In this document: piece after piece, positions 2,921 to 19,855 of the stretch
Layout: each line of letters begins with the position of its first letter
Numbering within the stretch: the stretch's first letter is position 1
DNA from: a virus
IMG/VR virus record: IMGVR_UViG_3300030329_001830
Location: 1-22,806 of that record
Reading direction: 5' to 3' (one strand)
DNA length: 22,806 nucleotides
Made by a program: the position numbers and the translations under genes
Notes under the pieces: generated by a model
Seen by the model: the letters and a program-made list of their open reading frames with translations, nothing else
Database searches by the model: none
Told to the model about the DNA's origin: nothing

Positions 2921-3063
2921 TGCTCATAATAGACATACCAAACTGGATCATGCTAGTATCATGGTTTGTTGTATTGAACTTCTCTCTTATAGTAATACTA
3001 ATACTGTGGATAATATTCTTAAACAAACGTGATATGCGTAAAGAAAACAAAAGGCTCTCTTAA
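2920..3063 (+). CDS. 47-aa single-pass membrane protein
   Basis: Starts at the ATG in TAATG with a very strong GAGGAGGAGG ribosome binding site. Residues about 9-36 are a long hydrophobic helix (WIMLVSWFVVLNFSLIVILI and onward), followed by a basic tail (NKRDMRKENKRLS). This predicts one membrane pass with a cytoplasmic C-terminus by the positive-inside rule. The TAA is in the loop of the terminator at 3053-3078 and shares two bases with the stop of the converging metallophosphoesterase gene. Phage inner-membrane proteins of this size may be exclusion or host-takeover factors, but nothing here is diagnostic. Confidence 0.65.
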   Translation: MLIIDIPNWIMLVSWFVVLNFSLIVILILWIIFLNKRDMRKENKRLS

Positions 3064-3078
3064 CCGAGAGCCTTTTTT
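3053..3078. terminator. Bidirectional intrinsic terminator between converging operons
   Basis: GGCTCTC (3053-3059) and GAGAGCC (3066-3072) form a perfect 7-bp stem around a 6-base loop. On the + strand six T follow (3073-3078); on the - strand the stem is followed by TTTTGTTTTC. It therefore works as an intrinsic terminator in both directions and ends both transcription blocks. Both flanking stop codons lie in the loop. Confidence 0.9.
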
Positions 3079-4106
3079 CTTTTATACGTAAGGTATTCTG
3101 CACCCTCGTAAGGATTAAATATGGTAGTGATCAATCTATTATCGTCATCATCGTACTTAGGATCGATGATCGTAACAGGAGCGTTGAATATATTTTTATC
3201 ATCTAGACCAAGCTTATCTGCATATTGATCTATCATTTTAAATGATGCTACCTGTAAAGCATGTGATATCAAACCCGATGCTGGGTCTTTAAGAACCTGA
3301 TAACCTGAAACATGTGTATGACCACACGTAAGAATGTGGTCTTTCCATCCCATCTGTGCTGCTTTAGCTACACCATGAGCAGTATTCCACATTGAATTAC
3401 CTTTGAATACATGCCTAGCATTTATTCTTACTTTTTTTCCATTTGGAAAAGAAAGATTAAGCCTAGCACCCCATTGTTCATAGACTCCCTTGTGATCTCG
3501 CATAATAAATTCTAAAGGATCACCATCCCCTGACCAAACATCATGATTACCAGCAACCAGATATAACCATTCAACTTGATTTACAAAATGCTCTGTTAGT
3601 CTCCAGCTTTCTTTTGCTGATGTAGATTGCTGTCCGTATAAATAGGATAATCTACCTATCCAGTTATTTTGTACATCACCAAGATTCCCACCAAAAAGAC
3701 CTTCTGTTTTATTTATAAGATTACACAAAGAATATATTTCAGCGATGTTAGTACCATCGTCATCAATATGAGGATCACCAAAATGGCATATCCCTATAGG
3801 ACCTTTCATGTTGATCTTTATATTGTATAGTTTTCTATCTTCTTTTGATCTGGTCTTTTGCTCATACTTTTTCTTACGCATTTCAATGAGTTCGTCAATA
3901 TTTAATAACTCACTTTCTTTTTTCTCGCCAGAAAAAGGAGATTCTTCAAGAATGCTAGGTTTTAATGTTTTCCTGCCGCAAGCAGTACATAACCATTGTT
4001 GTTTTTTTGATTCGGCTCTATAAACAAAACCGCTTTTATGAATAGAACGTGATCCGCAATGACGGCAACCTATTATATTACCATCTGAGTCTTTAACTAT
4101 CTTCAT
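3060..4106 (-). CDS. Metallophosphoesterase with N-terminal zinc ribbon
   Basis: A calcineurin-like metallophosphoesterase, a two-metal enzyme hydrolysing phosphoesters. The N-terminus has a four-Cys zinc ribbon (C14-x2-C17 and C40-x2-C43) like those at the start of transposases and other DNA-binding phage proteins. A charged linker (about 55-95) follows. The catalytic motifs are GDPHID (D111, H113), GNLGDVQNN (D144), GNHD (N187, H188), a lone ARH at 230-232 and GHTH (H263, H265), which is the standard metal-ligand order. The substrate may be nucleic acid, given the zinc ribbon, but this is inference. It is the last gene of the - strand block, downstream of a strong internal terminator (4227-4285), so it may be expressed at a lower level or by read-through. 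Its TAA (3062-3060) is in the shared terminator loop. Confidence 0.85.
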   Translation of the reverse strand: MKIVKDSDGNIIGCRHCGSRSIHKSGFVYRAESKKQQWLCTACGRKTLKPSILEESPFSGEKKESELLNIDELIEMRKKKYEQKTRSKEDRKLYNIKINMKGPIGICHFGDPHIDDDGTNIAEIYSLCNLINKTEGLFGGNLGDVQNNWIGRLSYLYGQQSTSAKESWRLTEHFVNQVEWLYLVAGNHDVWSGDGDPLEFIMRDHKGVYEQWGARLNLSFPNGKKVRINARHVFKGNSMWNTAHGVAKAAQMGWKDHILTCGHTHVSGYQVLKDPASGLISHALQVASFKMIDQYADKLGLDDKNIFNAPVTIIDPKYDDDDNRLITTIFNPYEGAEYLTYKRKKALG

Positions 4107-5189: not shown

Positions 5190-8100
5190 TTAATTCTCCT
5201 TATTGTCCCAATCTTCACCTTCAGATTCATAAAGGTCATCGATGGTTGATTCTATGTATTCTTTACGCATTTTTTCCAACTGTGCTCTGTCATAATCCCG
5301 TCTGAATTTATCTGTTGGGATCCTTACAAACTGTTGCATACCCCTACCAAAGGTTGTGCCGTAAGGTTCGTTGAATGTTTTATCAACAGACCTTGCGAAT
5401 CTTCCAAAAGGAAATAATGTCCAAGCTTGGTAATCTGCAAATCTTTCCCAATCTCCATTGAGTAACATTACTAAACTTTGAGGTATACGTGCAATAGGTG
5501 GAGTAATGATTTGGAGCGGTGCAATAGCCCTAGGATATGTACCAAAGAAAGCTCTTTCTCGCTCTCTCTTATCTCCCCACATCAATTCACCAGTCTCGAT
5601 CATCCAGTCAAATGGAGGAGGAGTAGCTACATCAAAAAGGCTATATGCATATGCAGAGCCTAATGCCATAAGCATTGCATTGATAACAAATAGACGTTGA
5701 AAATCATCATGAGCTTTAGTACCGGGTTTGAACCCGTACAACTTAGCCTGTCTATATATCTCTCTTTGAAATGCTATTTGATTCTGGACATAGTTCTTGA
5801 ATCTTGTAAGGACCTTACCAGTAGCAGTACGCATAAAAGCACTTCTGCCAACACTATGATAAACGAATTGCGTTGCTTCCACACCTTTCAATGCATGTTT
5901 TATAACTGCATCACTATTCAGATCTAATTGACCTGCCATACCATTAAAACTATCTCTCATCTGCAGCATGTGAGATAAGAATGCATTAGCCCTAAGCCAT
6001 CTTTCAGATGCCTGCATGGGGAATGCTCCTAGCTCAAGTATCTTTTCAGTAAGACCGTGCCTACGGGCAAGCTCCATGATCGTTTCTTTATTAGGATCTG
6101 GATTCTTTAATAAGAGCTTATTGAAATCTTTAGCGAACTCATAAAGAGCTTTCTTGTTTTTCATCACCCTTACTTTTGGGTTGAAATCAAGTTCGTTCTT
6201 TATATATTGTTCTATAACACCTTTCTCAATGATCCACCTCTTCAGGTCTTTCTTTGTTTTTACAAAGCTTCCATCTTTAAATTTTAATTGATAGTCGCCA
6301 TTCTCATTCTTAAGGATATTCTTTTCAAGATATTTAAAATTTGTAGACCTTAGAAAATTTCTAAGACCTGTCTTTGTAACTGTATTCAAAGAACCACCAA
6401 ATAAATTACCAGTAGCAACACCAGTATTAGCAAGTAATGTCAATAACTGAAACTTTGCTTCTACTGCACCTAGGTCATGTATGATCCTAGCCAATTTCTC
6501 AGCTCTCGCTTGATCGTTCTTAGGAAGATTAAATGGGAGTTTATCAGTGCCAAAGAATTTTAATATACGGTCAAGCTTCTGTATCATCTCATGATCGCTT
6601 GTCTGATAGTACATATTCTTTTTTAATTTTAGAGGGTCACTATTCTCCATTGACCTCAATACCCAATCAGAAAATGTTGTTTTGTATCCAAGAGAATCCC
6701 GTAGGTACATGCGGTAAAATTCAGCATGATCCTTTGTGTACTTACCAAAAGGTTCTTTTGCTGTCATTCTGTCTATTTCAACATCTCCCATAAGTGCAGC
6801 AAGGTTTTTTAACCTAGACTTAACAACGCCTTCTTTATACATTTTAATAGCATCATATTCTTTCATATAGGCTGGATATTCTGATTGTCTTTCAAGTATA
6901 TTTTTAGGTCTTGAAAAGAAACCGATACGAACTAAGTCGGAAATAATACCAGCAACATCTTTAGATGTCATATCTACCTGTACAAGTGCTTCATGCATAT
7001 GAGACTCACCAAACTTTGTTGGATGTGACATAGCATCACTTAAGTATTGGTACTTACTTCTTAAAGCAGGCTCTAGAACAGAGCGTAACAGATCAATATT
7101 CTTTGTATCTTTATAAGCATCTATGATCTTAGTTAATTTTTCAGAGGATTCTGGATTCATTAATCTAGCTTGAGCTTCTAGATATTCTATAACCTCTTCT
7201 GGTTTGCTCAAGGCTTTTGATAATTCTGCTTCATAAAGCTCTTGTTCATGAGCTTGTAGCTTTCTTTTCTCTGCTTTGGTTAGCCTAGTTCTCCAAACAT
7301 GTGGAAAATATGTTTCCTTATTATATCTTCCTATAGGTCTAAACTTTGTATCTAATTTCTTACCATCTTTGTTTTTAAGATTACCCTCTCTGTATGCCTT
7401 TCTAATATCCGATCCTTTACTTAATCCACTAGCTTTGAATAATTCATTTTTATTCTTATTGCCTATAATCTGCTCAAGCCTGTACTCGTACTGTGCTCTG
7501 TATATAGCTTCAAGGGGTATATTTTTTATGTCCTTACCTTCCCAAGCTGGTCTAATTACTTTCTTATAAAAATTCTCAAAATCAAACTTTCCATTACGCC
7601 ATATCATATAGTCATTTAATTTTACAACAGTAGCTGTATTTATATCAGTCTCTACCTTATCCCATTTATCTGAAAGATAAACATACTCATTCCCAAATTC
7701 TTCAAGATCATCACGTATCCTTCTGGTCAAAGATTCAAGCATTTGCTTGCCAGTAAATTTCTTTTGCTGACCTTTTTCTTCTATATTGAATGTTCTATTT
7801 AAATATTCTTTAGGTATCTTATCAAGTGTGGTCTTGCCTTCCATTATATCTACAGCCTTATTGAACAATTCAACTCGTTCATTAGGCGTAAGACCTGATA
7901 AGGTTCTGTATGTAGACTCATCCATCTTATTTAATACTGTAGAAACCTCATTCTCAGATTGACTCACCATCTTACTTAACCATTCACGCATCGCACCGTG
8001 CGTAGACATAACACGCTTTACATCTCTTATAACAACCCTGTCCTTACTTTTTACAGGCATATTGGCTTGCTTGAATATATTGACCTCATAAGCCAGTGTC

Positions 8101-11100
8101 TTTTTATCTAAGGTTGTAGGTCTATTATAATAGAATATCCTTTGTATACGCATAGGATCTCTATCTTTAGTTGATGGAAAATTGTCTTTTACAAATCTAT
8201 CTATCCAACCTTCTTTGAACTTTGGATTATAGTATTCAAAGAATCTTAAGAGGTTTGAAACATCGTTCTTTGTCATGGTGCTAAAGTCTCTAGGAGCAGC
8301 CTCGAATTCATACGTATACATAATGAAAGCATCTTCTGGATGTTCAGCCCAGTAAGGATGTTCTGCCATGTGATCTTTTAATCGCTTGACCTTAGCATCA
8401 AATACAGGATCACCTACAAAGTCTTGTCCCATGAACTTGGTAAAACTATCATCTATTTTAGCATAGTTAGATGGTCTATGTAGATATTCTTTAAAAGCCT
8501 CTATTTTATCTGCCTGTTTAACTGCAGGTTTCTTAGCTAATGTTGTTACAACATCTAGCTCATTGAACACATCTTTAACAGCTTTGTTACCTATCTGTGG
8601 AGACTGCCAAGGTATCCTACTGAAGATCCCAAAACGCTGACCTTTTGCAAATGGACTAAGTAAATATATATCTAAATATTCTTCAAATTTTGTAGGGTCT
8701 ATACCTTTCTCACCCAGTTCTTGTCTTATGCTATTTTTAAGAGCAACAACTTCGCTATCATAATCTGTAAAATAAGTATTCTTATGTTCGCCTTCTGGGT
8801 CACGGTCGATATTTTGATATTTCTTTTTTATAATATCTGCTTTATCTGCAAGTGATTTTAAATTTCTTTTAACGTCTGCAGCATTACCACCCTCAGCAAG
8901 TATCTTAGCTTCTATAGCATGAGCTTTTTTAACCAAAGCCATAAAGCTTGCTATTTTAAGATTCTCTTTCTGTAGCATTTCAGTAAGGTTTTTCCAGTCT
9001 CCTGTTAACGCTGCCTTCTGCCTTAATGCTTCTAGGTTCTTTGATAAAGATATCAATCTATCTCCAGCAAGTTCTCTTGCTAATGGATCTTCTGCTATGA
9101 GCTTATCTAAAGACTTAATAAGGTTTATATTTGAATCGTGAGGATGTGTGAATATCATTTTATGCACACCATCCTTACGTGCCTTATAAGTAATAAGGGT
9201 CATTATATTTGGAAACTTGTATTTAAAATTGGGACCAACTTGAGTATCACCAAAAAGCCTTTCTTGGAATTCTGCAAGATCCATTGATTCTCCAGTTCCC
9301 TTTTTACTCATAGCATTAGGCTTCATTGTTTGACCCATCTTATAAAGCTTTCCAAGGTCTGTATTGCTTTTAATTCTTTGATAATCTGCCTGAGCAAATG
9401 TATCTCTCATTGCTTCATACTTAGGATCATTCATCCAAGACGCAGGCTTGAATTCTACATCAAAAGCCTGTTCAAATAACAACCTAGGAAACCGCACATA
9501 TGATCTCATTTTAGGATAATTACCAGCATCTGCAGAACGGTTAAGCATTTCTCTACCATAAAGCCTTACGTTCTCACCTGCATTCGGCTTAAGGGTTAAT
9601 ATGTATTGTCCAAGATTTCTTTCATAATTCAATTTGAATGTTTCTTTTCCAGCATCATTCTTTAATTTGGGATGTATATCAACTACAAGCTTTCCGTCAT
9701 TTGCTGCTGCCATGTCAACCAAAGCTTGGATAGTTGTTCTATTATTGATAGCCCAGCCTATACCATTATTGCCTTCATATACATTCCTTGCAACCTCTTT
9801 TCTCATAGATGGAGAAAATATACTAGCTGGATGTAGGTAAGTATCTTGGTCGGAAACGTCATTGAATATAGGATCCATGTCCTTAGACTTTCCGTCTATG
9901 ACCTTACCGTCTTTTTCCCATTCATTCTTAACTTTCTTATAAGCATTCTTTACCTTACTGTCGAACCCATGATAAATAAATACTGAATCTGAATCCTTAT
10001 CCATACCGCCTAGATAAGCATCGTCTTTAGGGTGAGTTAAAACAGCGTTACCTTTTCTACCTGTAAACCCTTTAAAGACAAGAACCCTAGCACCACTTGA
10101 TGAATCAGCAGGGACACGTATAACAACAAATTCGCTATCAAACTTATCAATAGCTTTCTTTACTTTACTATAGATACCAGCTTCTTTCATTTTATTTACC
10201 TTAGCTGGGTTGTTAAGCATCTGTTTAATACGCCAAATTTCGCCAAGGTAGGCTTTATTTCCTTTTTTCTTAGGTAGTATAGCCTTTACTATTTTAGCGT
10301 CAAAATCAACGGGAAATCTTTTCATCCCGTCATCCATCATGAACTCGCCTTCATTGATCTTCATGGTTCTTAATTCTTCTACACCATATGGCATAGCCCA
10401 ACCCTTGCCAGAGTATTTCCATTTAGGTCTTAAATACCTATCTATCATATATCTTTTGTAAGTATGTTCCCAAAACTTACTAGTTGCTTTAAAGCCATCA
10501 GCAACTGCGTCTGTTGTTCCTACGGTATGAAATATTCTTTTATTTCTAAATATATAGTCCCGCCATTGGTCATCTGTGAAATTAAGATCAGCTTCCCCTT
10601 GATCACGTTCTGTGGATACACGCATGATATGATCACGTATGTGTGTTCTTAAATCTTTTAATTCTTTACCCTCAGATGTTAGGATAGAATGAATATTTTT
10701 AAGTGATATCTGGTCTACGTTTAATTTTTTAAAGTCTATACCAGATGTTGGATCTTTAATGTATTGTTCTATTTTTGCATTCTGAATTGGGTCTCCATCG
10801 ATAAGAGGTTCATAAAAAGTTTTAAATACATGCTCAGATATCTTACCATGTTGCTGTTCATTAAGGTTTCCAAATAACTGTCTTACTATCATTTGAGGAG
10901 ATACAGACTTGATAGGATTTTCATAGACACCAAGGTCTAGTCTAAAGTCTGAAATAGGCATTTGTCTAATATCTAATTCGCCTAACGCCACATGTCTTCC
11001 ATCTACATAATCGTATTTACTTTCTTTAATACCGCCTTTATGTTTTGCGGCTGAAGACATTAGAATCACATCAAGATCATTCTGTAACATAAACTCATTC

Positions 11101-13466
11101 ATAGAATCTGATGCTTTTCTACCAGCAGACTTACCTATTAAAACACCCGTTTCTGTTCTGGTCACAATACTAGGCTTAAGCATTCCAGAATCTTCCATGA
11201 GATCTCTAACGAATTCTTCACCTTTTTTAAATCCTGAATTCTTTACTATCTCATTCCAAACGTCTTGTCTTATATATATAGTTCCATCTGTTTGAGATTC
11301 ATATGGATACTTATATGTTTTAACGCTACCGTCTGCTTCTTTAACGTCTTGTTTGTACCACATATCTGGGAATTCATTTTCCTTGGGTACATAATCTTTT
11401 AACACAGTAATGTTTAAAGTATTCTTTCCATTGATATCAAAATTCAAAGGAATATTCTTAGTGTGGAACATTTGTTCACGTTTATTTCTGTCAACAACAT
11501 TCCTAGCACCAACTTTACTATTCATAAGATTACCTATCATAGTAAAGCCACGTTCATCTCCACCTACTGTATATAATCCATGACGCTGTGCTTCCCATAA
11601 AACATTGCTTTTCCAAGATTTTTTATGTCTATCGATTATATTACGTTCCATAACCTCTGATTCAATAGCATCTCCGAACCATTCTAATTCTTTGCGTTCA
11701 CTTTGATTGTAGTTATCATATAGTTCGCTTTTATATTGGTTCAATAATCTTTTCTGCTCACCAGCAGATAGGTTAGGATTTTTTTCTAAGGCTTCTCTTA
11801 ATTGACCCCTTGCTAAATTTTCAACCATTGTATCAAATCTGATCTGATTAATATCAGGGTGAAAAACACTTACTTTTAAAATACCCTTATCTTTAACACC
11901 TCCATCTATATACATATTATTTGAAGCAAGGTGATCTTCTATTGCATACCAGTCATGTTCTTTTACATTGTAATCAAGCTTACCAGTCTTAAAGTTTGGA
12001 ACGCCCTTGAAGGGCTTTGTTACAATGATACGACCATCAGAATCTTTTCTACCAGAAACATTGATATATTGAAGGGTTATTAATTCTCTACCATCTAGTA
12101 TATCTGCTGGAATATCCCACGCTTTACCATCTTTTGTAACGGGAGAGATACCATCCATTTTAGTACCTTTATAATCACCGCCTCTGGGAATAGCTTCTAT
12201 GCCTATTATTGGTCCATCGGGTTTACCATCTTTTCTAAAGATCTGAACAAGCATCTGTTCTCTTGCAGATGACCTAGGGTCTGATTCTTGCTCTGGAAAT
12301 GGATCTTCCCATTCTTTAAGGTCAATAACAATACCACCTTGAACTATCCTACCAGCCTGTTCACGTGCTATGTTATTTATATCTTCTTCGGTTGGCTTTC
12401 TGCCATATCTTTTTTCTGCGGCAGTAGCTAAATGGATCTCCAATTCTTCTTTTGTTTCCCAAGCACCTGTCTTCATCATGCTGATACGAGCCTGATCTGC
12501 TGCCTGTTTATATACATATGATTTTGTATCTTTAGATAGCTTGTCAAACTCAGGATTCTTCTCAGGATAGAATACCCTATCTGGTCTACCTGATGCAATA
12601 TCCTCTGCGTAGAATTTCATTCCCTCTTTTTCATAAGAAGGTCTTGCTTGGTATCCAAAGAATCCGCCTAATAAATATTGATATAACTGCATTTCTATAG
12701 GCATATCTTGAAGAGTTGTAGGCAGTCCTGTTATCATTGAGCCAATACCAGTCTTGATCATGCGTTCTGCTCTTTCATGATTCGCATAATTTTTACTTTG
12801 TAATAAAGTACCTATCTGCTTAAAGTTTCCAAGACCGCCAAATGCACCACCTGCTATTGTACCATGTATCATTGAATTAAGTATCTGATCTGGTCCGCCC
12901 CAGAAACTACTAACACCACTAGCAACGCCTAAGTGAACAGCATCGTTGAAAACACCACGAGCTGCACTACCACGTTTCATATATTCAAGGGATTCAAGAC
13001 CAGCTTTGGATATACCTTTGTTTACAAGGTCACTTGCTTTATCACCAAATAGCATAGGAACAGAGAACTTGTTAACAACCTGTGCACCAAAAGCACCTTT
13101 TTCTAATGCTCTTTCTACGCCCATCATACCAAGTTTGGATGCACCCCTAGCCATTCCTTTAAGAGGGATAGCTGCTATACCGGGAGCGAAACCAACTAAG
13201 TGACCAAGGGAATGTGCGATAGCCTCATATGTATTACGAGGTTCTCTGCCAACTGGAATAGTAGTAAAGCCTTCGGCTACACCACCGATAGCTGTTTCTA
13301 CTGTATTACGAAGATTGAAATCTGAAGATACTCGATTGAACTTGAGATCTACTTGCTGTGCTATTTCCTGAAGCTCATCAACCTGTTCTTCTGTGAACTG
13401 CATAGGATTAGCCCTATACATGTCAATAAGCTTTTTGACACGATATGACTCGCTATAGAGTGCCAT
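5190..13466 (-). CDS. Giant virion protein with candidate double-psi-barrel RNA polymerase core (2758 aa)
   Basis: One uninterrupted 2758-codon frame ends the virion gene series. Residues 1-45 match the N-terminus of the 226-aa protein encoded upstream. Residues about 55-290 are Gly/Ala-rich with amphipathic stretches, as in injected internal proteins. SSAAKHKGG (804-812) and RVPADSSSG (1117-1125) leading to GGMDKDSDSVFIY (1153-1165) resemble the lysine barrel and the metal-binding D-x-D-x-D barrel (D1156, D1158, D1160) of single-chain RNA polymerases. The usual form is DFDGD or close to it; DKDSD keeps all three Asp but has Ser for Gly. The rest is mostly helical and unassigned. A hydrophobic segment lies near 2590-2612 (NAMLMALGSAYAYSLF). 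The gene is certainly real; virion location is inferred from context and the polymerase reading from motifs alone. A simple scaffold or ejection protein is the alternative. Confidence 0.9.
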   Translation of the reverse strand: MALYSESYRVKKLIDMYRANPMQFTEEQVDELQEIAQQVDLKFNRVSSDFNLRNTVETAIGGVAEGFTTIPVGREPRNTYEAIAHSLGHLVGFAPGIAAIPLKGMARGASKLGMMGVERALEKGAFGAQVVNKFSVPMLFGDKASDLVNKGISKAGLESLEYMKRGSAARGVFNDAVHLGVASGVSSFWGGPDQILNSMIHGTIAGGAFGGLGNFKQIGTLLQSKNYANHERAERMIKTGIGSMITGLPTTLQDMPIEMQLYQYLLGGFFGYQARPSYEKEGMKFYAEDIASGRPDRVFYPEKNPEFDKLSKDTKSYVYKQAADQARISMMKTGAWETKEELEIHLATAAEKRYGRKPTEEDINNIAREQAGRIVQGGIVIDLKEWEDPFPEQESDPRSSAREQMLVQIFRKDGKPDGPIIGIEAIPRGGDYKGTKMDGISPVTKDGKAWDIPADILDGRELITLQYINVSGRKDSDGRIIVTKPFKGVPNFKTGKLDYNVKEHDWYAIEDHLASNNMYIDGGVKDKGILKVSVFHPDINQIRFDTMVENLARGQLREALEKNPNLSAGEQKRLLNQYKSELYDNYNQSERKELEWFGDAIESEVMERNIIDRHKKSWKSNVLWEAQRHGLYTVGGDERGFTMIGNLMNSKVGARNVVDRNKREQMFHTKNIPLNFDINGKNTLNITVLKDYVPKENEFPDMWYKQDVKEADGSVKTYKYPYESQTDGTIYIRQDVWNEIVKNSGFKKGEEFVRDLMEDSGMLKPSIVTRTETGVLIGKSAGRKASDSMNEFMLQNDLDVILMSSAAKHKGGIKESKYDYVDGRHVALGELDIRQMPISDFRLDLGVYENPIKSVSPQMIVRQLFGNLNEQQHGKISEHVFKTFYEPLIDGDPIQNAKIEQYIKDPTSGIDFKKLNVDQISLKNIHSILTSEGKELKDLRTHIRDHIMRVSTERDQGEADLNFTDDQWRDYIFRNKRIFHTVGTTDAVADGFKATSKFWEHTYKRYMIDRYLRPKWKYSGKGWAMPYGVEELRTMKINEGEFMMDDGMKRFPVDFDAKIVKAILPKKKGNKAYLGEIWRIKQMLNNPAKVNKMKEAGIYSKVKKAIDKFDSEFVVIRVPADSSSGARVLVFKGFTGRKGNAVLTHPKDDAYLGGMDKDSDSVFIYHGFDSKVKNAYKKVKNEWEKDGKVIDGKSKDMDPIFNDVSDQDTYLHPASIFSPSMRKEVARNVYEGNNGIGWAINNRTTIQALVDMAAANDGKLVVDIHPKLKNDAGKETFKLNYERNLGQYILTLKPNAGENVRLYGREMLNRSADAGNYPKMRSYVRFPRLLFEQAFDVEFKPASWMNDPKYEAMRDTFAQADYQRIKSNTDLGKLYKMGQTMKPNAMSKKGTGESMDLAEFQERLFGDTQVGPNFKYKFPNIMTLITYKARKDGVHKMIFTHPHDSNINLIKSLDKLIAEDPLARELAGDRLISLSKNLEALRQKAALTGDWKNLTEMLQKENLKIASFMALVKKAHAIEAKILAEGGNAADVKRNLKSLADKADIIKKKYQNIDRDPEGEHKNTYFTDYDSEVVALKNSIRQELGEKGIDPTKFEEYLDIYLLSPFAKGQRFGIFSRIPWQSPQIGNKAVKDVFNELDVVTTLAKKPAVKQADKIEAFKEYLHRPSNYAKIDDSFTKFMGQDFVGDPVFDAKVKRLKDHMAEHPYWAEHPEDAFIMYTYEFEAAPRDFSTMTKNDVSNLLRFFEYYNPKFKEGWIDRFVKDNFPSTKDRDPMRIQRIFYYNRPTTLDKKTLAYEVNIFKQANMPVKSKDRVVIRDVKRVMSTHGAMREWLSKMVSQSENEVSTVLNKMDESTYRTLSGLTPNERVELFNKAVDIMEGKTTLDKIPKEYLNRTFNIEEKGQQKKFTGKQMLESLTRRIRDDLEEFGNEYVYLSDKWDKVETDINTATVVKLNDYMIWRNGKFDFENFYKKVIRPAWEGKDIKNIPLEAIYRAQYEYRLEQIIGNKNKNELFKASGLSKGSDIRKAYREGNLKNKDGKKLDTKFRPIGRYNKETYFPHVWRTRLTKAEKRKLQAHEQELYEAELSKALSKPEEVIEYLEAQARLMNPESSEKLTKIIDAYKDTKNIDLLRSVLEPALRSKYQYLSDAMSHPTKFGESHMHEALVQVDMTSKDVAGIISDLVRIGFFSRPKNILERQSEYPAYMKEYDAIKMYKEGVVKSRLKNLAALMGDVEIDRMTAKEPFGKYTKDHAEFYRMYLRDSLGYKTTFSDWVLRSMENSDPLKLKKNMYYQTSDHEMIQKLDRILKFFGTDKLPFNLPKNDQARAEKLARIIHDLGAVEAKFQLLTLLANTGVATGNLFGGSLNTVTKTGLRNFLRSTNFKYLEKNILKNENGDYQLKFKDGSFVKTKKDLKRWIIEKGVIEQYIKNELDFNPKVRVMKNKKALYEFAKDFNKLLLKNPDPNKETIMELARRHGLTEKILELGAFPMQASERWLRANAFLSHMLQMRDSFNGMAGQLDLNSDAVIKHALKGVEATQFVYHSVGRSAFMRTATGKVLTRFKNYVQNQIAFQREIYRQAKLYGFKPGTKAHDDFQRLFVINAMLMALGSAYAYSLFDVATPPPFDWMIETGELMWGDKRERERAFFGTYPRAIAPLQIITPPIARIPQSLVMLLNGDWERFADYQAWTLFPFGRFARSVDKTFNEPYGTTFGRGMQQFVRIPTDKFRRDYDRAQLEKMRKEYIESTIDDLYESEGEDWDNKEN

Positions 13467-16451: not shown

Positions 16452-17126
16452 TTATATACTTATGGTCACTTTCCATACAGAAGTTATAAACCAATCTATA
16501 GTTCCAGATGGATCAGTGCTTGCGTCTAAATAAATAGAAACCTTGTCTCCAGCTTCTACAGTTGGAGAATTATCCCAATCTGATTGATTTATCTCTATCA
16601 ATGTATCGCTAGAAAGTGTTGTTGTGTATGTAAAAGTAGAAACAGTATCCCTTGTTGTATCTCCATCATCTTGCTTTACTATCTTAAATTCAAAGTCAGC
16701 TGTTGCGTCAGACAAAGTTTCAGGTCTAAATAATATTTTATGACAGGTCATTTTGTAAGGAACTAAAAAAGAAGATGTTGAATTATCTGGAGACGTTTGT
16801 TCTCCAGTTCCTTGCCAAGGAATATAATGAGTATCTGTATTTATATCGTCTGAAAAATTATGTATAAAATATCTGTAGTCTATAAAGGTTGAAGAGTATT
16901 TTAAATTGGAAGCATTGAGAGTTTCTTCAACATTTAGATCGTTGTTCTTATACATATCAGAACGCCATAATATGCCTCGTTCTTTTCTATACCTCGAAAG
17001 CACTCCCTTACGATTAAAGAATAACACCTCTTCGCCTTCTCTCATAGACTGTAAAGATGGTTGAGCATTTACAACTCGTATCTTATCTTGCTTTCTATTA
17101 TTTATAAACCTAGAAACCCTATCCAT
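16452..17126 (-). CDS. Tail appendage / fibre-like virion protein (224 aa)
   Basis: Residues about 10-60 carry a signature I associate with tail-fibre-type proteins of aquatic phages: a basic start (INNRKQDKIRV), then SMREGEEVLF and KGVLSRYRKERGILWRSDM. The C-terminal ~130 residues are Thr/Ser/Asp-rich beta strands (DTVSTFTYTTTLSSDTLIEI; WFITSVWKVTISI), fitting a beta-sandwich that may bind a receptor or cap a trimer. Its ATG overlaps the tail nozzle gene by one base (TAATG). No enzyme motif. The 47-base gap after it to the 353-aa gene is AT-rich and empty. Confidence 0.65.
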   Translation of the reverse strand: MDRVSRFINNRKQDKIRVVNAQPSLQSMREGEEVLFFNRKGVLSRYRKERGILWRSDMYKNNDLNVEETLNASNLKYSSTFIDYRYFIHNFSDDINTDTHYIPWQGTGEQTSPDNSTSSFLVPYKMTCHKILFRPETLSDATADFEFKIVKQDDGDTTRDTVSTFTYTTTLSSDTLIEINQSDWDNSPTVEAGDKVSIYLDASTDPSGTIDWFITSVWKVTISI

Positions 17127-19855
17127 TAACCAGCTCTTTTCTTAAGCATTCTATATTCAATACCTATATCGTTAATATAAACCTTTCTATTATTTGAGCT
17201 TGTATCCATTTTTACTGCTATCTTATTGCATACAACTGGAGAACTTGGAGTAAGCTTTACAGTTGCCCAATTCGTAGCAGATGAAGCAATAGTACCACTT
17301 AAAGCATGCGATGAACCATCGTCTTCTTGTAATGTAAAATAACCAGTTAAAGCATTGTCTGATTTATAGGTTACGTAAACAGCATATACTTTTTTTGTGG
17401 TAGATGGATCACCGAAATCATATTCTTTTGTTTCAAATTCACAAGTATTAGCAGCCACTGTTCGGTACAGCTTGTAAAAATCAACAGCAGCTCCGCTATC
17501 ATTTGCTATTAAAATATTATTATCTGTATCTATTGGGTTTGTATTTCCGTCATTAGCAACGCTTACAAAATCTGTTGTTTTGACAAAGGTTCCTTTTCTA
17601 AGATCTACTGTTATACCAGACGCTGCACCACTTAAGCTCTTGATAATATAGGCAAGAGATTCTAGTTCGTCATATATGATACCTGTAGAAGTAGTTACCA
17701 ACCCACTTATTGTTGATGGGCTTAATTTATTCTCTGATAAATTTTGTATCTGTTGACCATTATATAAATAGATCCCTTGCTGATTTATCCATAAAACACC
17801 ATACTGAGTTCGTTTAACAGCTTCAGGATTGCCTACGCCCATGTATTTTCTAGATTCTTCTAAGAACCAGCTTGTATCATCTGGATTGGCTATGTTGATA
17901 ATGTCAAGACTGTATCGTTTAAAGGCTAATAGCCTATCGCCATATGAATCTATTGCAGTATATGAATCTGCATCACCTTTAGCGGCTTCGATAAAATTAT
18001 GATAAGGAAATGTATCATATCTATGTGGCATTGAATACATGATCCTATCTGGGAAATGTGTTGTTGTTGACCCTTCTTTTGTTAAACCTGTATTTTCATC
18101 TTTTATATTTACGTTGCAAACAAAAGCCCTATTATTAGCGACAACAACATCTTTCCAATATTCACCACTATCACCTATAGCATGACTAAATATATTAGAA
18201 GAAAAACCATTGATCATTTCGTAAGTAATAGCACCTAGTTGCTTTACTATAAAATTATTAGCAGCATGATTAAAATCTGGACAAGAATATACTCCACCAG
18301 ATATGGTCAATGTGGTAGAGCCACCACCACTACTTGCAGTATTTTGAGATAAAGTAATAACATTACTTCCATTATGACTTGCTATTGTTGTGCCCGCTTC
18401 TATATTGCCACCAGTTATGGTCATCCCATCTACTAAATAAGTAACATCAGATACGCTCGTTATGGATGTACTGCTATTGCCCGTTGTTCCAGTAGGTGTA
18501 AATATACCATTATCCCATACACTATGATCGTCTGTGAACTTGGTTCTACATCCTTTTGTAAGGTCGATATCTACAAGCATTACCCATTCTTCATCTGTAT
18601 CCTGCTTTCTTATATATATCCTACCACCAGATATTCTAGGATCAAACGGTCCAACTGTTCCAATACATAATGAAAGAACTTTAAGGTCATCTGATTCGGT
18701 TATTGTATGTGTATCAGTATAGACAGTTGGTAGCGATTCTTGATTTCCATCATATACAAATGTTTGAGCAAGTTCATATATACCAGAAGATATAAGCCCG
18801 TCTACGTCTGTTTCGGTGGTTATGGCTACATTGAATCCAGTACCAGCGTCTAAAGAATCGTACGTTGCACCATCTGAGCTTTTGTACTTAACAAGAACTC
18901 CAGCTGTTCCTGTGGATGATTTTACATGTCCTTGAGTTGGCTTTGCTAACGTATTATCTTTTGCGTAATATGCTAAATAAGAGTTATCTCCAGTATCGCC
19001 TTTCCAGCTACTTGCAGCAGCCGTTTTTTCAAAGTGTCTTCTCTGTATCCATCCATACCACTGTATCTTAGAATTGTTCTTATCTGCAGTATCACAACAC
19101 CTAATAGCATCTTCAACTGTATAATATTTTACCTTTGAATTCGTTCCACTAGCATCTGACCTTAATGTTATGCTGTCTTCTTGCCAATTTGTACCAGCTG
19201 TATTAACAGAATAAGTATCTATTTTATGCTCTGCTGGATTGGCTAATAATATAACTTGATCCCCATAAGCAGTTCCTTTAAGGGTTGCACCCCAAAAGTC
19301 TTGAGGTGCTGTTTCGATATTAATAGATAAAGCTTTATCAAATATGATATTGCTACCATTTGTATCAACTACAGTATATACACCTTGAGACTCAGGGCTT
19401 AGTCCATCTGCTGTAAACGTTGTGGACGTAAGCAATACTTGAGTTCCAATAGGAAATGAACTAGCTAGATTTTGCTGAGTACCGTTTGATCTGTATTCTA
19501 ATTCTTTATATTCACCACCAACTTGACGTGCAATAAATCCATAGGCAGAACCTTCATTGTCATCATCTCCTGCTATAGAACTTGTTTGAGAAACTGTAAC
19601 AGGATCTCTTACGTGATCTGTTTCAAGATATCCAAGACCATACCCAGCTTCTATTGTTGAAATGTGTGAACTGTTATAAGCACTTACCTTATTATTGGTA
19701 GAGTCTGTATTGATATAAGCAGCAGATATAGAACCTTGTTTATCGACCCTAAGATTTTCAATATCTTGGAGTTCGTTATTTGCTATATCAGCAGGGTCCT
19801 TTAAAGTGTTCAGTCCACCACTGAAATCTTTTATTTGAAATATCTGCTTTGGCAT
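17126..19855 (-). CDS. Tail tube/nozzle protein, T7 gp12 / P22 gp10-like (909 aa)
   Basis: The N-terminus FSGGLNT (11-17), with a Pro/Asn-rich turn, ELQDIENLRVDKQGSI (28-43) and Gly/Ala, is the usual opening of podovirus tail nozzle (tail tubular B, P22 stabilisation-type) proteins. Later blocks are also typical: DRIMYSMPHRYDTFP (near 600), YGDRLLAFKRYSLDIINI (near 640) and YGVLWINQQGIYLYNGQQI (near 690), the beta-propeller part. An inserted beta module at about 452-522 is rich in Ser, Thr and Gly (TSITSVSDVTYLVDGMTITG) and looks like the small Ig-like or adhesive repeats decorating phage tails. At 909 aa it is longer than T7 gp12 (about 790), in line with the insertion. The gene lies between the endolysin and the tail appendage gene. 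Confidence 0.8.
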   Translation of the reverse strand: MPKQIFQIKDFSGGLNTLKDPADIANNELQDIENLRVDKQGSISAAYINTDSTNNKVSAYNSSHISTIEAGYGLGYLETDHVRDPVTVSQTSSIAGDDDNEGSAYGFIARQVGGEYKELEYRSNGTQQNLASSFPIGTQVLLTSTTFTADGLSPESQGVYTVVDTNGSNIIFDKALSINIETAPQDFWGATLKGTAYGDQVILLANPAEHKIDTYSVNTAGTNWQEDSITLRSDASGTNSKVKYYTVEDAIRCCDTADKNNSKIQWYGWIQRRHFEKTAAASSWKGDTGDNSYLAYYAKDNTLAKPTQGHVKSSTGTAGVLVKYKSSDGATYDSLDAGTGFNVAITTETDVDGLISSGIYELAQTFVYDGNQESLPTVYTDTHTITESDDLKVLSLCIGTVGPFDPRISGGRIYIRKQDTDEEWVMLVDIDLTKGCRTKFTDDHSVWDNGIFTPTGTTGNSSTSITSVSDVTYLVDGMTITGGNIEAGTTIASHNGSNVITLSQNTASSGGGSTTLTISGGVYSCPDFNHAANNFIVKQLGAITYEMINGFSSNIFSHAIGDSGEYWKDVVVANNRAFVCNVNIKDENTGLTKEGSTTTHFPDRIMYSMPHRYDTFPYHNFIEAAKGDADSYTAIDSYGDRLLAFKRYSLDIINIANPDDTSWFLEESRKYMGVGNPEAVKRTQYGVLWINQQGIYLYNGQQIQNLSENKLSPSTISGLVTTSTGIIYDELESLAYIIKSLSGAASGITVDLRKGTFVKTTDFVSVANDGNTNPIDTDNNILIANDSGAAVDFYKLYRTVAANTCEFETKEYDFGDPSTTKKVYAVYVTYKSDNALTGYFTLQEDDGSSHALSGTIASSATNWATVKLTPSSPVVCNKIAVKMDTSSNNRKVYINDIGIEYRMLKKRAG

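Follow-up and report, generated by a model that had tools for sequence, protein, structure and literature searches.

Does the 2758-aa protein encoded near the end of the structural genes of this uncultured phage contain an RNA polymerase, and does the phage carry it in its particle? The gene lies in the window, i.e., the whole analyzed stretch of 22,806 nucleotides from the IMG/VR virus record IMGVR_UViG_3300030329_001830. ORF listing and translation confirm a real reading frame. An earlier note, made from the sequence alone, had read the protein as a cryptic single-chain polymerase of the two-barrel type, in which a double-psi beta-barrel with a catalytic lysine precedes a second one with a DxDxD motif. 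All the motif positions it named are present (Table 1), and DKDSD is the sole DxDxD in the protein. The barrel order and the spacing of roughly 350 residues given there also fit, as 348 residues separate K808 from D1156, compared with 296 between the counterparts K1065 and D1361 in gp66 of the crAss-like phage phi14:2.

Table 1. Features of the giant protein, its operon and the early-gene element; nucleotide positions refer to the window unless another sequence is named, residues to the 2758-aa protein.
Feature	Position	Strand	Basis
Giant protein: candidate N-terminal tag and Gly/Ala-rich region, RNA polymerase core, mostly helical C-terminal half	5190..13466	-	ORF and homologous ORFs
N-terminal segment of ~50 aa (Y..nP..F.d.q.d.L..a....i.F.R)	13317..13466	-	common to upstream gene
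Gly/Ala-rich hydrophobic region, residues 80-275	12642..13229	-	sequence
RNA polymerase core as modelled, residues 397-1596	8679..12278	-	AlphaFold2, Foldseek
Residues 653-1166, profile-aligned to crAss gp66 relatives	9969..11510	-	hhalign
First barrel (DPBB-B type), ~residues 761-849	10920..11186	-	model beta strands; gp66 alignment, K808 = gp66 K1065
K808, putative catalytic lysine of DPBB-B	11043..11045	-	invariance
R-x-P to metal loop of second barrel (DPBB-A type), residues 1111-1166	9969..10136	-	hhalign, model strands
DKDSD (D1156, D1158, D1160), putative metal-binding catalytic loop	9987..10001	-	invariance; aligned to gp66 D1361-D1365
Candidate bridge helix, 37-residue helix, residues 1219-1255	9702..9812	-	AlphaFold2 model; weak hhalign to gp66 1526-1621
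Candidate trigger-loop region, residues 1296-1334, with D1313	9465..9581	-	D1313 invariance; weak hhalign
C-terminal half, residues 1561-2758, mostly helical	5193..8786	-	AlphaFold2, BFVD matches
SSAAKHKGG	residues 804-812		
SDFRLDLGVYENP	residues 839-851		
R1117-x-P1119, start of second-barrel segment	residues 1117-1119		
SSGAR	residues 1123-1127		
THP	residues 1144-1146		
GGMDKDSDSVFIYHGF	contains D1156/D1158/D1160		
226-aa neighbour with shared N-terminal segment	13475..14155	-	blastp
909-aa protein, same operon	17126..19855	-	ORF and position
CTTACCCTTTTTT...TTTATTAAC element, upstream of five consecutive small early genes	G000 37,100-38,620 (L004:14400-15918)		

The note had expected the polymerase to be hidden in a protein that would be called hypothetical. 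This agrees with the database searches, as Pfam and PHROG scans of the protein gave nothing significant and tblastn against 50,697 annotated phage records gave no match. Two relatives of the protein gave no match of the core in annotated phages either, so that this collection holds no phage of the subfamily detectable by tblastn. A search of PDB sequences with the family profile (hmmsearch) recovered no polymerase, and profile-profile and fold comparisons were therefore needed.

Residues 397-1596 were modelled with AlphaFold2 from a 46-row alignment, reaching a pLDDT of 86.1 and a pTM of 0.84. In a Foldseek search of the PDB the top match of this core model was 6VR4 (phi14:2 gp66; E 1.5e-10, probability 1.00), followed by QDE-1 (2J7N/7Y7S), Arabidopsis RDR2 (7RQS) and P74-26 gp62 (8F5M), with maize RDR2, P32 gp64, AR9 nvRNAP (7S01) and bacterial beta' subunits among the further matches. 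The fold check proposed by the earlier note thus leads to gp66 first, then to QDE-1, RDR2, P74-26 gp62 and AR9 nvRNAP. TM-scores are modest (0.39 of the query for gp66), as is expected at about 10% identity and with inserted domains. The two double-psi barrels were read from the fold match (Foldseek to 6VR4, 2J7N, 7RQS and 8F5M) together with the strand pattern, the strands of the second barrel being residues 1112-1116, 1126-1134, 1141-1144 and 1161-1165 of the model. Behind it, a 37-residue helix sits at the place of the bridge helix, in a region where the alignment to gp66 is weak. Further downstream, a similarly weak hhalign pairing sets NRSADAGNYP against LNAFVDNAKDP of gp66. Among predicted structures in BFVD, the best-scoring matches of the core (E down to 2.6e-27) are viral proteins without a name, and others are crAss-like proteins and a Podoviridae sp. 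ctxqo3 protein already named RNA-dependent RNA polymerase.

Alignments with hhalign against the single sequences of gp66, P23-45 gp96 and gp64 were not significant, and for gp66 significance was reached only with a family alignment of gp66 and 12 crAss-like relatives (13 sequences). With this alignment the first barrel was matched at a probability of 95-96% (E 3.9e-8 to 2.3e-9), and the second-barrel segment alone (residues 1111-1166) at E 5.6e-5. Using the expanded family of 82 sequences, both motifs fall within a single 442-column alignment (probability 96.6%, E 4.9e-10), which places K808 on gp66 K1065 and D1156-D1160 on D1361-D1365. The controls reached at most 0.2% in 25 column shuffles and 0.8% with a reversed profile. 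For the T7-type polymerase family PF00940 there was no match in the protein or the genome, and the control genomes gave none either.

The genomic setting bears on the second part of the question. The record has 45,971 bp and is near-complete but not fully closed, as the helicase ORF runs off both ends; judged by the helicase homologue in locus L003, about 0.3 kb seems to be missing. On the minus strand, terminase-, portal- and capsid-type genes are followed by tail genes, the gene of a 226-aa protein and the giant gene, which belongs to the structural (morphogenesis) operon. Terminase and portal were assigned by tblastn, the capsid gene by size and position. The best portal matches are P22-like podoviruses, which suggests from sequence comparison a short-tailed phage. 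The 909-aa protein of the operon, for which no homologue was found, is probably a tail or tail-tip component, judged by ORF and position. The giant protein and the 226-aa protein encoded upstream have their N-terminal 40-50 residues in common (blastp E 3e-4 over 38 residues), and in many relatives the product of the upstream gene begins with a similar sequence. This segment is a possible virion targeting or ejection tag, and the 226-aa neighbour is probably a co-packaged virion protein. In residues 80-275 many Gly, Ala and Pro are invariant across nine representatives, and the region is possibly membrane-active. The C-terminal half, modelled at a lower pLDDT (70.6) than the core and mostly helical, resembles giant phage proteins in BFVD that are named for a 'large polyvalent protein-associated domain'. 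Gene position, the shared N-terminal segment and the ejection-protein-like C-terminal half argue for packaging and ejection, and the polymerase is likely to be a virion protein.

A metallophosphoesterase-like gene (window 3060-4106; phrog_7339, E 7e-41) stands beside the polymerase block, and phi14:2 likewise has such a gene among its structural genes.

The strongest competing explanation is a two-barrel RNA polymerase which is made in the infected cell for middle or late genes and is not part of the virion, like P23-45 gp64 or YonO. Such enzymes exist (PMC10770324, PMC5467207), and one of them, P74-26 gp62, is among the fold matches. However, the known non-virion enzymes are compact and lack fusions of the kind found here, where the polymerase is joined to a long ejection-protein-like half, shares its N-terminal segment with its neighbour and is encoded in the structural operon behind capsid and tail genes. 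This explanation is thus improbable, though less so than the two others weighed below. No second RNA polymerase was found in the near-complete 46-kb record, and of 17 records searched with the polymerase profile, 16 gave a single match each, so that the giant gene appears to be the only RNA polymerase of this record. The 89.8-kb record G016 has, besides a full match, a second partial one in a 3444-aa frame (G016:C1:72255-73916), which is either a second polymerase or the product of a joined assembly.

The conservation of the catalytic residues was followed through the family. Searches for relatives with the whole protein or a long stretch of the core gave two loci only, and it was a short motif segment that opened the family. 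With the DxDxD segment 19 loci were found in IMG/VR, and a wider alignment search matched 94 stretches, 80 of which were kept. Homologous ORFs of about 2450-3440 aa occur in many IMG/VR contigs, complete ones having mostly 2500-3300 aa. In the first alignment of 46 cluster representatives, with a mean column identity of only 17%, D1156, D1158, D1160, K808, R1117 and P1119 are invariant (46/46), as are, among others, K662, D727, K764, K779, G1125, R1127, Y1151-G1154 and D1313. Because the pattern of the first search contained DKD, a second, independent search was seeded with a C-terminal segment, which lies about 1400 residues from the motif, and made no use of the motif itself. It matched 277 stretches as relatives. 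The core was present in 36 of 48 new ORFs examined, while the remaining 12 end at a contig edge; every relative with enough of its ORF on the contig has the polymerase core. In these relatives the three aspartates, R1117 and P1119 are again invariant (36/36), as is K808 (35/35), and D1313 is found in 34 of 35. Since the motif residues are invariant in 46 representatives and in up to 36 relatives found without the motif, they are more than a chance agreement, and the three aspartates and K808 came through the conservation check that the note had set as a refuting test.

Two peculiarities of the motif had been pointed out along with the polymerase reading, namely a serine for the usual glycine of DFDGD and a lysine at the second position. 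Both are present, and each calls for a correction. The fourth position is free, with S, I, A or G in the family and I or V in crAss-like phages, so that the serine is unremarkable and was rejected as a significant feature. The lysine marks one subgroup only (L or V stands there in others), and the search pattern partly explains why it is invariant in the first set. Of the relatives found via the C-terminal segment, most have Leu at the second position and most have Gly at the fourth, giving DLDGD, which is near the classical DFDGD. The unusual lysine and the variable residue after the second aspartate could be taken as signs of a polymerase-derived protein which has lost catalysis and serves purely in ejection or structure. 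However, even very divergent sequences keep every catalytic position, which would not be expected after a loss of activity, and this explanation is highly improbable. That the motifs match by chance in a giant structural protein unrelated to polymerases, a reading that the lack of a significant Pfam or PHROG family match would allow, is refuted in practice by the fold search, the profile alignment with its controls and the invariance, and its probability is negligible. With fold, profile alignment and invariant catalytic residues in agreement, it is practically certain that the 2758-aa protein contains a single-chain two-barrel RNA polymerase, as first proposed.

Among known systems, gp66, of the polymerase type that crAss-like phages inject into host cells, is the closest though distant relative and P23-45 gp96 the closest functional model (PMC10770324, PMC7886860); both sources also give the phage precedents for two-barrel RNA polymerases. 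Like the window protein, gp66 is a long single-chain protein of a virion operon with the lysine barrel before the DxDxD barrel, and the motifs vDxxKR, TDxxxYI, SAxKxG, RxP and GxDxDxD are aligned between them. It differs by an identity of only about 10-14% and a genome of about 100 kb (here about 46 kb), whereas the window protein has its polymerase in mid-chain, followed by a C-terminal half of about 1200 aa, and its subgroup has the motif lysine. The phage does not group with the Crassvirales, as no match of the window protein was found in the 50,697 phage records, the portal is P22-like, and the genome has 46 kb compared with about 90-100 kb. In the Thermus phage P23-45, gp96 likewise joins a two-barrel polymerase to a giant virion protein that is injected. 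In this 5002-aa tape measure, however, the polymerase lies close to the N-terminus, and the phage is long-tailed and makes a second polymerase, gp64, while here one polymerase and a P22-like portal were found and there is no significant sequence match to gp96. QDE-1 and plant RDR2 belong to the same single-chain fold class but are eukaryotic enzymes of RNA silencing and not virion-associated. The virion RNA polymerase of phage N4 is also part of a giant ejected virion protein, but it is of the T7 type, with a fold unrelated to the two-barrel enzymes.

A possible target of the polymerase lies in the early region. The sequence CTTACCCTTTT occurs in five copies in the record (0.02 expected from shuffles), all upstream of five consecutive small plus-strand early genes beside the divergent spacer. 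The relatives G001, G003 and G005 have the same element at early genes, with the consensus (hairpin)-CTTACCCTTTTTT-TTTGTGTTTATTAACAAA-AAGGAG-ATG across the record and relatives. In some copies TTACCC is located outside the hairpin stem and is thus not merely half of it. In G006 (L117), whose polymerase is about 30% identical, a parallel element GCTCTTTTTTTATGTTAAC is found nine times in the early region. The hairpins included in several copies of the early element could mean that it is a terminator and not a promoter, and it is best described as a candidate promoter, terminator or both. In P23-45, specific motifs are used for promoters and for terminators (PMC10770324).

The best joint explanation, with a probability of roughly 0.88, is a DNA-dependent polymerase of the gp66 type which is packaged, ejected and transcribes the early genes. 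Its chemistry is deduced from the homology, fold and residue invariance established above: D1156, D1158 and D1160 would hold the catalytic Mg2+, with K808 opposite, as in QDE-1 and gp66. The N- and C-terminal regions would anchor the giant protein in the particle; it would reach the cell before the DNA or together with it, threading in with its flanking regions touching the envelope. There the polymerase would transcribe the block of small early genes with the shared upstream element. Later genes would be left to the RNA polymerase of the host, as no further polymerase of the phage was identified. More tentative, and somewhat short of an even chance, is a fuller model in which the giant protein is ejection conduit and polymerase in one, acting on a dedicated element (hairpin, CTTACCCTTTTTT and AT-rich stretch) before each early gene and driving early transcription during DNA entry in a phage of about 46 kb without a second polymerase. 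Such a system would be common to hundreds of uncultured phages, the sequence of the element being lineage-specific.

The two-barrel virion RNA polymerase is a known kind of enzyme, of which the proteins described here form a new and widespread family. In the literature searched, mainly open-access, the family was not found described. Only a handful of such polymerases have been characterized, from crAss-like phages and P23-45, and the family adds a numerous and very divergent group from phages of half the crAss-like size, invisible to Pfam and PHROGs. It provides defined catalytic residues together with a candidate promoter or terminator, and widens the sampling of phage polymerases related to those of RNA silencing. 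This large family of uncultured phages probably carries its own transcription enzyme into the cell, which suggests that in many uncultured phages transcription begins independently of the host polymerase.

In BFVD, the ctxqo3 protein and the A0A516... proteins are the top predicted-structure matches and are uncharacterized, automatically named or unnamed; some of them look like members of the same or a sister family. A0A516LUR1, which matches the core, and A0A516LUR3, which matches the C-terminal half, have accession numbers close together, and A0A516KXJ8/KXK0 are a second such pair. This hints that in some uncultured viruses polymerase and C-terminal half can be encoded by two adjacent genes.

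In some relatives an insert of about 115 aa shares about 44% identity with proteins of Pseudomonas jumbo phages. In L018 it follows the DxDxD (core residues 832-961), and the matches of L018 in annotated phages are due to this segment and not to the polymerase core. Finally, a whole member genome is found as one 46,061-bp contig in the Prochlorococcus single-cell genome AG-436-M02 (L095/L053), and a fragment (L096) lies within a Flavobacteriaceae MAG.
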